Below, one piece after another: positions 16,876 through 64,000 of a stretch of DNA of 64,000 bases (positions within the stretch are counted from its first letter, which is position 1; each line of letters begins with the position of its first letter). The stretch spans positions 98,382,375 to 98,446,374 of the forward strand of contig CM077644.1 in assembly GCA_039707465.1 (NCBI GenBank), in the 5' to 3' direction. The notes under the pieces are model-generated. The model saw nothing but the letters and a program-made list of their open reading frames with translations. It searched no databases and was not told the origin of the DNA. Position numbers and translations under genes: made by a program. The DNA is from Rhabdophis nuchalis. Taxonomy: Eukaryota; Chordata; Lepidosauria; Squamata; Natricidae.

Positions 16876-17963
16876 TAATAATAATAATTTAAATAATAAT
16901 AATAATTTTAATTTGTTGACCGCTCCTCTCCCCACAGGGACTCGGAGCGGTGCACAGGGAAAACTAAAACAATAAATATACAAACACATTAAAAAAACAA
17001 ATTAAACATATACCTGTGCTAAAATACCCCATTGAAATACTAAAATTCCCAGTTAAAACAACTAAAACCCCATAGAGAGAGACTACCCTAGGCCGGCCAA
17101 GCAGAAAAGATGTGTTTTTAGTTTTAGACGGAAGGAGCGGAAGTCCGTGGTCGTTCTAATGTCGGGGGGAAGGTCGTTCCAGAGGGCTGGGCCCGCCACA
17201 GAGAGAGCCCTTCCCCTGGGTGTCGCCCGCTGACAGAGTCTAGCGGACGGCACCCGGAGAAGTCCCTCTCTGTGGGAGCGAATCGGCCGTGAGGATGTAT
17301 GAGGCAGGATCCGATCCCGCAGATAGCTAGGTCCCGAGCCATGGAGCGCTTTAAAAATGATGACTAATACCTTGAAGCGCACCCGGAAGACAACAGGCAG
17401 CCAGTGCAGCTCGCGCAAGAGCGGTGTTATGTGGGTAAACCTGGAGGTTCCCAGAATTGCCCGCGCGGCTGCGTTCTGGACCATCTGAAGTCTCCGGGTG
17501 CACCTCAAGGGAAGCCCCATGTAGAGAGAGTTACAATAGTCCAGTTGGGATGTCACGAGAGCATGAGTGACTGTGCAAAGGCGTCCCGATCCAATAGGGG
17601 GCGCAACTGGCGAACCAGGTGAACCTGGTAAAACGCCCTCCTGGCCACGGCTGCCACTTGATCTTCCATGGACAGCCGGGCATCCAGGAGGACACCCAAG
17701 TTGCGCGCCCCATCCACAGGGGCAAGATGTTCGCCCCCTATGGCCAGCGATGGACTCAGCTGGTTGAATCGGGCAGCCGGAAACCACAGCCACTCGGTCT
17801 TGGTCGGGTTGAGCCTGAGTCCGTTACTTCCCATCCAGATCCGCACGGCTTCCAGGCACTGGCACATCACCGCTACGGCATCGTTGGGGTGGTTTGGGGT
17901 AGATATATACAGCTGTGTATCATCAGCGTAGAGGTGGTACTTCGATGATCTGGTGAAGTTCAT
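16876..17963 (-). mobile_element. L2 LINE, 1.1 kb, RT C-terminal half
   Basis: The minus strand encodes YHLYADDTQLYISTP (RT motif with YADD), LRLNPTKTEWLWF, then after a frameshift near 17580, HALVTSQLDYCNSLYMGLPL, MVQNAAARAILG, LRELHWLPVVFRVRFKVL and LWNDLPPDIR. The 3' end has the GCACCGCTCCGAGTCCC hairpin and an ATT/AAT tail. It is the longest L2 copy here and is 5'-truncated. Confidence 0.93.
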
Positions 17964-18060
17964 GGTGATATAATTTGTTATGTGCAGATTATATTGATAG
18001 TCATTTTAATGGTTGAAATCTTTACCCAGAATTGTAGAACTGTTACAACAATGGTAAATA

Positions 18061-18703: not shown

Positions 18704-18826
18704 CAGGGGTGTCCAAACTTGGGAAGTTTAAGACTTGTGGACTCCAACTCCCAGAATTCCCCAGCCAGCGGAATTCTGGGAGTTGGAGTCCACAAGTCTT
18801 AAACTTCCCAAGTTTGGACACCCCTG
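18704..18826. mobile_element. hAT foldback MITE
   Basis: A 123-bp almost perfect palindrome (CAGGGGTGTCCAAACTTGGG and its inverse) with the perfect duplication GCCTAAGT at 18696-18703 and 18827-18834. Confidence 0.95.
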
Positions 18827-38664: not shown

Positions 38665-60530
<21,866 letters not shown>

Positions 60531-61157: not shown

Positions 61158-61298
61158 CAGAGGTGCTGAATTATGGCCCCTTTATGACTTGTGGACTTCA
61201 ACCCCCAGAATTCCTGAGCCTGCATGGGCATGGCTGGCTCAGGAATTCTGGGAGTTGAAGACCATAAATCATAAAAGGGTCATAGTTGGCCACCCCTG
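61158..61298. mobile_element. hAT foldback MITE
   Basis: Imperfect palindrome, 141 bp, with arms meeting near GGCTGGCTCAGGAATTCTGG. It is flanked by the perfect 8-bp duplication CCTTAGAT at 61150-61157 and 61299-61306. Ends are CAGAGGTG / CACCCCTG. Confidence 0.85.
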
Positions 61299-62289: not shown

Positions 62290-62652
62290 TTTTATAATAA
62301 ACTAGTTGATAACCCGGTGTTGCCCGGGTATTTATTTATAGGGGGGAAATGTCAGGACCAAACATAATTTCTAATGTTGTATTTTCCCCCTTACCAAAGG
62401 GAGCCCCCCTGTGGATTACTGTGAAGACATTACCATGGAAACTCCACTGTGCTGTACAGTAGAAGCCATTTTAAGACACAACAGGCTGTATTTTAACAGA
62501 ACACACATCCCAAGGGGTGTTAGGGATGTCTTACCCCCACAGTATTTTTTTCCAGAGAGTAAGTCATTTGTGTACCAAGTTTGGTTAAAATTGCTCAAGA
62601 AGTTCCAGAGTTATGCTGGAATGCACGCACACACAGAGCCACATATATATGG
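62290..62652 (+). repeat. Unclassified interspersed repeat preceding the hammerhead array
   Basis: Starts near AACTAGTTGATAACCCGG, with a small GC hairpin (CCCGGTGTTGCCCGGG), and ends with CCAAGTTTGGTTAAAATTG...GTTATGCTGG followed by CA/TA repeats. Phrases of this type recur at the ends of widespread animal retroelements, but I cannot assign the class. It abuts the tandem hammerhead units and may belong to the same element. Confidence 0.5.
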
Positions 62653-62808
62653 GGCCCTAACAGGAAGTTCCTAACAGGAAGTTGTGAAAACAATTATAAG
62701 TTGTGGAAACAATTATCTATACTAAATACTCCTGGATTAGCTGATGAAATAGGGTAGAACCGATTAGGCTGGAGTACTAGGCTTCTGCCTTGGATTCATT
62801 ACAGTCCC

Positions 62809-62819
62809 GGTTCGAATCC
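62809..62819 (+). promoter_or_regulatory. RNA polymerase III B-box-like motif in hammerhead unit
   Basis: GGTTCGAATCC matches the B-box consensus GGTTCGANNCC exactly. It ends 11 nt before stem I of the ribozyme and is repeated at 63154-63164 in the next unit. An A-box is less clear; TAGGCTGGAGTACTAGG, 30-45 nt upstream, is a weak candidate. The surrounding sequence is tRNA-like but does not fold into a convincing tRNA. Confidence 0.5.
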
Positions 62820-62830
62820 CAGTGGGGTGT

Positions 62831-62877
62831 GGCCAACTGATGAGAGCTAATAAGCTCGAAATAGATCTATCTTGGTC
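62831..62877 (+). ncRNA. Type I hammerhead ribozyme, copy 1
   Basis: All core positions are present. Stem I 5' is GGCCAA (62831-62836), then CUGAUGA (62837-62843). Stem II is GAGCU/AGCUC closed by AAUA (62844-62857), then GAA (62858-62860). A15.1 to U16.1 form a short stem III, AUA(G)/(C)UAU (62861-62870), and C17 is at 62871. Stem I 3' UUGGUC (62872-62877) pairs fully with GGCCAA, allowing one G-U. Self-cleavage is predicted 3' of 62871. The very short stem III is typical of newt, schistosome and retrozyme type I ribozymes, which often work as dimers. The fold was done by hand. Confidence 0.88.
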
Positions 62878-63175
62878 TCTCAAATTTAAATGTATTGATC
62901 AGCTCATAAAAACTAACACATATCTAAAAAATATTACACAACGTAACTAAAAAATGGTTCTGTGTCTAGATGGTCTCTGGTGATGAGCCGACAGGCAGAG
63001 AGGGAAACAGCATGTCTCCCCCTTAATTGGAGCCCTTACAGGAAGTTGTGGAAACAATCATCTATACTAAATACTCCTGGATTAGCTGATGAAATAGGGT
63101 AGAACCGATTAGGCTGGAGTACTAGACTTCTGCCTTGGATTCATTACAGCCCCGGTTCGAATCCCAGTGGGGTGT

Positions 63176-63222
63176 GGCCAACTGATGAGAGCTAACAAGC
63201 TCGAAATAGATCTATCTTGGTC
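63176..63222 (+). ncRNA. Type I hammerhead ribozyme, copy 2
   Basis: Same architecture as copy 1, with every core residue conserved: GGCCAA, CUGAUGA, GAGCU-AACA-AGCUC, GAAA, short stem III, then AUC and UUGGUC. The only change within the 47 nt is in loop II (AAUA to AACA), which leaves all pairs intact. Cleavage is predicted 3' of 63216, exactly 345 nt from the copy 1 site. Confidence 0.88.
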
Positions 63223-63445
63223 TCTCAAATTTAAATTTATTGATCAGCTCATAAAAACTAACACATATCTACAAAATATTACACAACGTAACTAAAAAAT
63301 GGTTCTCTGTCTAGATGGTCTCTGGTGATGAGCCGATAGACAGAGAGGGAAACAGCATGTCTCCTCCCTTAATTGGAGCCCTTACAGGAAGTTGTGGAAA
63401 CATATATATATATATATATAATAAATGTATGTTCATAAATGCATA

Positions 63446-64000
63446 CATATTTTTCGGAGTATAAGACGCACCTTTTTTCCTCTAAAAAGAGGCTGAAAAT
63501 CTGGGTGCGTTTTATATATCGAATGCAACATTTTTTGCCTCCCGGAACCCCGCCCCCTTCAACAAACTGGCTGTGCCTAGCCTTATGGAGGCTTCCAGAG
63601 AGCTCCTGGGGGCTGGGGAGGGCAGAAATTAGCCTCAAACTGGCAGTTTTTTGCCCCCCCCCCAGCCCTCAGCAGCACTCTATAAGCCTCCATAGGACTA
63701 TGCATGCAATTTATTTGACACAAAATTGGCTCATTTTCGCGATAAATGGGCCGGTTTTTTGCTCATTTTTGACTCCTCCCCCAGGAGCACTCAGCAAGCC
63801 ACCCCCCCAAGGCTAGTCATGCTTTTTATTTGAAAAAAAAACGGCCCCGTTTGCATGGAGAAACGGGACGTTTGGGGGAGGTTTACAGCATGCAAAAACA
63901 CTCTCTAAGCTTTTTAACTGTTTCTGTGCCTGCAGAAACAAAGTCTTAAGGTTTGTCAGCAATTTCCTTCTCCAGGACATGGATAAATACACCTGGAAAC
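63446..64000 (+). mobile_element. TA-target DNA transposon (GGAGTATAAGACGCACC family), runs off window
   Basis: Starts CATATTTTTCGGAGTATAAG after a TA. Internal sequence (CTCTAAAAAGAGGCTGAAAA, TGTGCCTGCAGAAACAAAG, TACACCTGGAAAC) matches the element at 6875-7964 along its length, so it is a close relative. The right end lies beyond the window. It has no coding capacity and is probably Tc1/mariner-like. Confidence 0.7.

Follow-up and report, generated by a model that had tools for sequence, protein, structure and literature searches.

Small non-coding elements carrying hammerhead ribozymes have been described in newts and worms (PMC7229834, PMC2770079, PMC2576457), and metazoan retrozymes, for which ribozyme-made RNA circles are reported, are known from cnidarians, mussels and salamanders (PMC7229834). 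The axolotl elements Rtz_331 and Rtz_353 and the newt satellite repeats carry type I hammerheads, with axolotl tandem units of 330-350 bp, and both axolotl hammerheads cut better as dimers, one of them having a very weak, palindromic helix III (PMC7229834). Human and other mammalian hammerheads are isolated motifs, not tandem ones (PMC7229834). According to a 2020 review, metazoan retrozymes could count as a new SINE family, and no conserved motif in them reveals the machinery that moves them (PMC7761336).

The Sm-alpha and Sj-alpha elements of Schistosoma combine a type I hammerhead with SINE-like character, a 335-bp unit and a Pol III box B (PMC2770079, PMC2576457, PMC8490949); they also possess box A and a link to tRNA-Gln (PMC2576457, PMC2770079). 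In squamates, the Poseidon Penelope-like element PAc of Anolis bears a hammerhead, occurs in tandem arrangement, cuts AT-rich DNA, its preferred target, and initiates reverse transcription from fixed internal positions, and it encodes a reverse transcriptase and an endonuclease (PMC11167929). The PAc hammerhead cut only with added protein; mutating it left insertion in vitro unaffected, so that cutting is not needed there, and none of the reads terminated at the site of cleavage (PMC11167929). Squamates also harbor the SINE-derived satellites sSat1-3, tandem repeats related to SINEs, and the term "hammerhead ribozyme" has no occurrence in the available text of the paper describing them (PMC10702118).

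Tandem hammerhead units in a snake genome

Within a 64-kb stretch of snake DNA (hereafter the window), Tandem Repeats Finder identified a repeat of period 345 with 2.0 copies and 97% matches at 62698-63402. A sequence-only reading had described a 345-bp tandem repeat with two hammerhead cores at this place; the period was confirmed, and the array proved to comprise more than two units, with a truncated remnant of another unit preceding the two full ones. Gapped alignment of the two full units revealed nine substitutions and one 1-base indel. The features of this locus (locus 1) are as follows.

62640-62649: ACATATATAT, left border of the locus, repeated at the right border
62651-62697, plus strand: 5'-truncated remnant of a leading unit, with micro-duplications of 14 bp and 19 bp
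62698-63042, plus strand: unit 1, 345 bp (Tandem Repeats Finder, alignment)
62809-62819, plus strand: perfect Pol III B box GGTTCGAATCC of unit 1
62831-62877, plus strand: type I hammerhead 1 (descriptor; Rfam HH9), predicted cut after 62871
62861-62870, plus strand: 10-nt palindrome ATAGATCTAT forming helix III, the same at 63206-63215; predicted intermolecular helix in the dimer
62959-63001, plus strand: imperfect 3' hairpin of unit 1
63043-63388, plus strand: unit 2, 346 bp; repeat sequence extends to about 63401, ending ..GTTGTGGAAACA
63154-63164, plus strand: perfect Pol III B box GGTTCGAATCC of unit 2
63176-63222, plus strand: type I hammerhead 2 (descriptor; Rfam HH9), predicted cut after 63216
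63402-63419: (AT)n tract abutting the right end of the locus

The 19-bp micro-duplication of the leading remnant extends into unit 1, and the unit 2 counterpart of the 3' hairpin has a perfect 10-bp stem (63304-63313 paired with 63337-63346). The head-to-tail units of 345 and 346 bp fall in the retrozyme range of about 170-400 nt and, like retrozymes, are non-coding. A frame survey found no long frame in the units or between them, and a protein search with the 60-aa frame through the unit yielded no candidate.

Each unit contains one hammerhead with all core residues, made up of helix I (GGCCAA/UUGGUC), CUGAUGA, helix II (GAGCU/AGCUC), GAA and a helix III (AUA/UAU) around GAUC. In alignment, the two differ from each other in loop 2 only. 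A strict descriptor (helix I of at least 4 bp, CUGANGA, helix II of 4-6 bp, GAA, and helix III of at least 3 bp with A15.1-U16.1 and H17) matched twice when both strands of the 64 kb were scanned, each time at locus 1, and in none of 300 dinucleotide shuffles. The two complete type I cores proposed from the sequence alone are thus present where they had been placed. Their spacing of 345 nt also held, as did the predicted cut sites after C17, at 62871 and 63216, read from the sequence.

The sequence-only reading had further proposed a check against the Rfam covariance model of type I hammerheads. Evaluated by E-value on 62600-63450 (851 bases), the two motifs matched HH9 (RF02275), the first with 25.8 bits (E 5.4e-4) and the second with 25.3 bits (E 7.8e-4), below the gathering score of 52, and at gathering cut-offs the whole window had no match to any hammerhead or other Rfam family. 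A whole-window scan at E<=1 did not list the locus 1 hammerheads and did list a diverged third one, described below. HH9 is the best hammerhead-clan match for all three ribozymes, at 25-30 bits against the gathering score of 52. We take HH9 to be a conserved amniote intronic hammerhead, single and not mobile.

A conserved 3' domain resembling a broken hammerhead occurs at 62979-63020 and 63324-63365 and in the same part of two diverged copies, and hence in 4/4 copies profiled. As a second hammerhead, this domain (GUGAUGAGCC..GAAACAGYAUGUC) was rejected on reading the sequence: G stands in place of C3, GAAA is preceded by extra bases, and a helix I was not seen.

The architecture of the array bears on whether it could descend from a Penelope-like element by deletion, or be what remains of its pseudo-LTR, having moved in cis within a larger coding element. 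The Anolis element offers a precedent, with its hammerhead, tandem copies and AT-rich targets (PMC11167929). However, the snake units abut directly, with no reverse transcriptase or GIY-YIG frame in or between them, and the longest stop-free frame wholly within a unit is 60 aa. Furthermore, the 9 of 40 long frames of the window that were scanned contained a single reverse transcriptase domain, LINE-like and 45 kb away, and no Penelope-like helper; and the B box found in each unit is not mentioned for Penelope in the available text. We therefore consider a Penelope-derived remnant very unlikely.

LINE-like frames, one with the reverse transcriptase domain, lie at 17083-18005 on the minus strand. 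The frame at 17083-17823 had 1319 protein matches; the nine best of 120 listed were all from snakes (Ahaetulla, Pantherophis, Crotalus), and the later named matches among those listed were more snakes, lizards and, lower down, fishes, in keeping with a likely snake origin of the window. Elsewhere in the window, inverted-repeat hairpins at 18730-18800, 39574-39656, 59588-59670 and 61184-61272 matched the Rfam miRNA families mir-5408 and mir-3160 at 48-71 bits on both strands, below gathering, and likely constitute a palindromic inverted-repeat transposon family. Short Gly-X-Y stretches on the minus strand, at 60170-60204 and 60492-60530, look like collagen exons, and a GTAAGT donor follows the first of them; the element may therefore lie near a collagen gene.

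Diverged copies and their ends

Comparison of unit 1 with the rest of the window revealed a second locus on the minus strand, at 42620-43113, which is 81-85% identical and about 20,000 letters from locus 1. This second locus suggests that the 345-bp element is an interspersed repeat. The features of locus 2 are as follows.

42587-42614: (AT)n tract, 7 bp beyond the GTTGTGAAAA end of copy A
42620-42849, minus strand: copy A, 84-85% identical; 5'-truncated, retaining the hammerhead and the 3' half of the unit
42796-42842, minus strand: hammerhead with a helix I pair changed from A-U to G-C and core G12 replaced by A (42815)
42848-42907, plus strand: fold-back piece joined to the 5' end of copy A, repeating unit positions about 168-229 in inverted orientation
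42896-42935: (AT)n tract between copies A and B, meeting the end of the inverted piece
42985-43113, minus strand: copy B, last third of the unit, 5'-truncated, 81-82% identical
43159-43174: (AT)n tract, separated from copy B by about 46 bp and lying on the far side of the (GT)n in front of that copy

Within the window, a four-copy profile recovered copy A (E 1e-74), copy B (E 4e-39) and the inverted piece (3e-12), and nothing further below E 0.4. Exact-pattern scans with two conserved stretches gave 0 matches in viral and prokaryote contigs, which are not where snake DNA is expected. Copy A starts at unit position 128, just upstream of the hammerhead, and copy B at about 228. The copy A hammerhead retains all 14 pairs, one of them through a two-sided change, and its G12-to-A loss sits where locus 1 has a CpG. 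It is also the best HH9 match of the window (42783-42849, 30.3 bits, E 0.0014, gathering 52). At the same place, Rfam MIR4240 scores higher than HH9, with 41.5 of 200 bits, and follows a long hairpin. This hairpin (42848-42907 against 42760-42808) is near-perfect, spans roughly 50 bp, carries the copy A hammerhead at its tip and was made by the inverted duplicate.

The right-hand ends of locus 1, copy A and copy B share GTTGTGRAAA and then diverge into AT-rich sequence with (AT)n, and their left-hand ends lie at three different unit positions. Sharing a 3' end while being truncated at the 5' side typifies copies inserted by reverse transcription, and the pattern of ends here resembles that of retrotransposed copies. 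Copies A and B share variants as well as the sequence following the 3' end (an ATAACC stretch, then AT). A single event may therefore have produced both, in which case the independent 3' ends would number two, not three.

All four (AT)6+ tracts of the window (4/4) lie within 50 bp of the copies, three of them within 10 bp, a count that represents two loci and not four trials; the share of the window within 15 bp of such a tract is 0.35%. This proximity is reminiscent of the AT-rich targets of the Anolis Penelope-like element (PMC11167929). The (AT)n could predate the element or have been made by it. The ACATATATAT pair bordering locus 1 is a possible target-site duplication, which in AT repeats is indistinguishable from slippage. 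Simple repeat aside, comparison of the flanks of the two loci gave just two short matches at chance level (E 0.17), and the dispersal seen within this one 64-kb window consists of two loci 20 kb apart with unrelated flanks. The element is likely mobile, since two hammerhead units and two worn partial copies end near the same point beside AT tracts.

Predicted folding and transcription

Helix III of the snake hammerhead is very short, and together with its loop it forms a 10-nt palindrome. A similarly short helix III with a palindromic loop characterizes the axolotl hammerhead HHR_Amex1, for which action as a dimer is shown, whereas for the snake motif it is predicted (PMC7229834). Folding of a single motif favored a structure other than the hammerhead, at -12.6 kcal/mol compared with -8.9 kcal/mol for the hammerhead (3.7 kcal/mol worse). 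The predicted minimum-energy structure of the homodimer, in contrast, was a double hammerhead in which helices I and III form between the strands; it reached -34.2 kcal/mol versus 2 x -12.6 for the separate strands. These predictions suggest that two hammerhead copies would pair into a double hammerhead, the design of the newt and axolotl repeats.

For the closed 345-nt circle, the best predicted fold was -80.0 without the hammerhead versus -74.3 with it. Stability of the circle was dropped as evidence, as 40/150 shuffles were equally low (z -0.55). The segments ATTAGCTGATGAA (62736-62748) and TTGATCAGCTCAT (62895-62907) are 85% complementary within each unit and also across units, and could compete with the hammerhead fold.

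These folding results, together with the state of the copies, touch on whether the hammerheads are inactive relics, the pattern reflecting past amplification only. Such a reading accords with the loss of core G12 at locus 2, with the nine substitutions and one indel separating the units, and with a monomer whose lowest-energy fold is not the hammerhead. Nevertheless, the two cores of locus 1 are intact, with their hammerheads differing only in loop 2, and the two-sided helix I change hints at past selection on the fold; overall, we judge an entirely dead element unlikely. The helix I covariation involves one pair in three sequences and was reached by 167/500 column shuffles, and it is accordingly treated as suggestive only and not as proof of fold selection.

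With respect to transcription, each hammerhead has a perfect B box 11 bp upstream of its helix I. Exact B boxes number three in the 64 kb against 0.02 expected, the boxes of units 1 and 2 counting as one observation by descent. Copies A and B are cut off before the B-box position. The third B box belongs to a SINE-like sequence at 58918-58982 on the minus strand, with a perfect A box 54 bp upstream; its resemblance to the 345-bp unit from the B box on covers 23 bases and is at chance level (E 0.75).

In the units themselves, the best A-box score was equalled by 190/2000 random regions and is not significant, and neither ARAGORN nor Rfam recognised a tRNA there. A full tRNA head was ruled out on these grounds, and the element is called SINE-like and is not filed as a tRNA SINE because a significant A box and a tRNA-like head were not found. 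Neither unit has a T4 run on its plus strand, the first run after the array being T5 at 63450. The missing T4 runs were dropped as proof of Pol III, as 2947/5000 unit shuffles lack T4 too; in real sequence, 152/2492 strand-windows are without a T4 run. With an exact B box present and the A-box, tRNA and T4 tests null, Pol III transcription of the element is considered only plausible.

The B box, as found in a SINE, also favors a reading in which a hammerhead-bearing SINE was duplicated in tandem at the DNA level by unequal exchange, giving a SINE-derived satellite with no RNA circle. Satellites derived from Squam1-3 SINEs occur widely among squamates, most snakes having up to thousands of such loci (PMC10702118). 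However, the units of these known satellites measure about 70-290 nt, always below SINE length, with 67 nt in most snakes, and the unit here is 345 nt (PMC10702118). Moreover, the array begins and ends near the unit position at which copies A and B end, beside AT tracts. Taken together, we regard duplication at the DNA level as distinctly unlikely.

In the window, 28167-28240 matches a stretch of the Squam3 SINE at 86% over 74 bases, likewise in keeping with a snake origin.

A candidate snake retrozyme

The retrozyme-like organisation suggested by the sequence-only reading finds support at the sequence level: the element is non-coding, about 345 nt long and tandem, with a type I hammerhead and a minimal palindromic helix III. 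The second locus, common 3' end, AT tracts and B box would extend that description from a tandem repeat to an interspersed SINE-like repeat. By these features the element would be of the metazoan retrozyme kind with SINE-like traits, assignment to the tRNA SINEs or to Penelope each failing on a feature that was tested.

On the best reading, it is closest in design to Schistosoma Sm-alpha and to the axolotl retrozymes. It differs from the schistosome elements in that its A box is not significant and no tRNA was found (PMC2576457, PMC2770079). The axolotl and newt retrozymes differ from it in their amphibian host and in that their circles are demonstrated, the snake element being known here from its sequence (PMC7229834).

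We consider it probable that the element is a snake retrozyme, that is, a non-autonomous retroelement. Its transcript would self-cleave into 345-nt RNAs, probably circularised afterwards, and a borrowed reverse transcriptase would copy these back into AT-rich DNA. The array would first be transcribed, possibly by RNA polymerase III using the B box of each unit. Next, the two hammerheads would associate via their palindromic helix III and cleave on the 3' side of 62871 and 63216, as folding predicts. By analogy with the axolotl and mussel retrozymes, a host ligase may close the 345-nt RNA. A Penelope-like reverse transcriptase or a LINE could begin copying near ..GTTGTGGAAACA and continue around the circle, or else along a multimeric template; the copied product would land at (AT)n. 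For this last step the 3' and 5' ends and the AT tracts are observed, and the enzyme and the order of events are our proposal. Our best guess for the helper is a Penelope-like enzyme.

A more far-reaching version pictures a living Pol III-driven SINE-ribozyme hybrid in snakes that makes 345-nt circles, is set into (AT)n by a Penelope-like enzyme and is the mobile source of the domesticated amniote intronic HH9 hammerheads; we offer this version tentatively and think it more doubtful than probable.

Among the titles and abstract openings listed by the literature searches, where subscription journals are mostly absent, the Anolis Penelope-like element was the only tandem hammerhead element described in a reptile, and the searchable literature yielded no small non-coding retrozyme in reptiles, birds or mammals. 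In the available text of PMC7229834, the words reptile, lizard, squamat-, SINE and polymerase III have 0 occurrences. Provisionally, therefore, the element appears not to have been described in squamates before, and we know of no earlier amniote case of a metazoan retrozyme from the literature searched.

If this reading is true, a tandem non-coding hammerhead element in a snake would bring the pathway of ribozyme-made RNA circles into the amniotes. The similar 3' ends and nearby AT tracts would provide a clue to the machinery that moves metazoan retrozymes. Finally, a repeat in an ancestral amphibian was proposed by Perreault et al. 2011 as the origin of the hammerheads conserved in vertebrates (PMC3088659); an amniote repeat that, among the Rfam hammerheads, matches HH9 best opens this proposal to direct testing.
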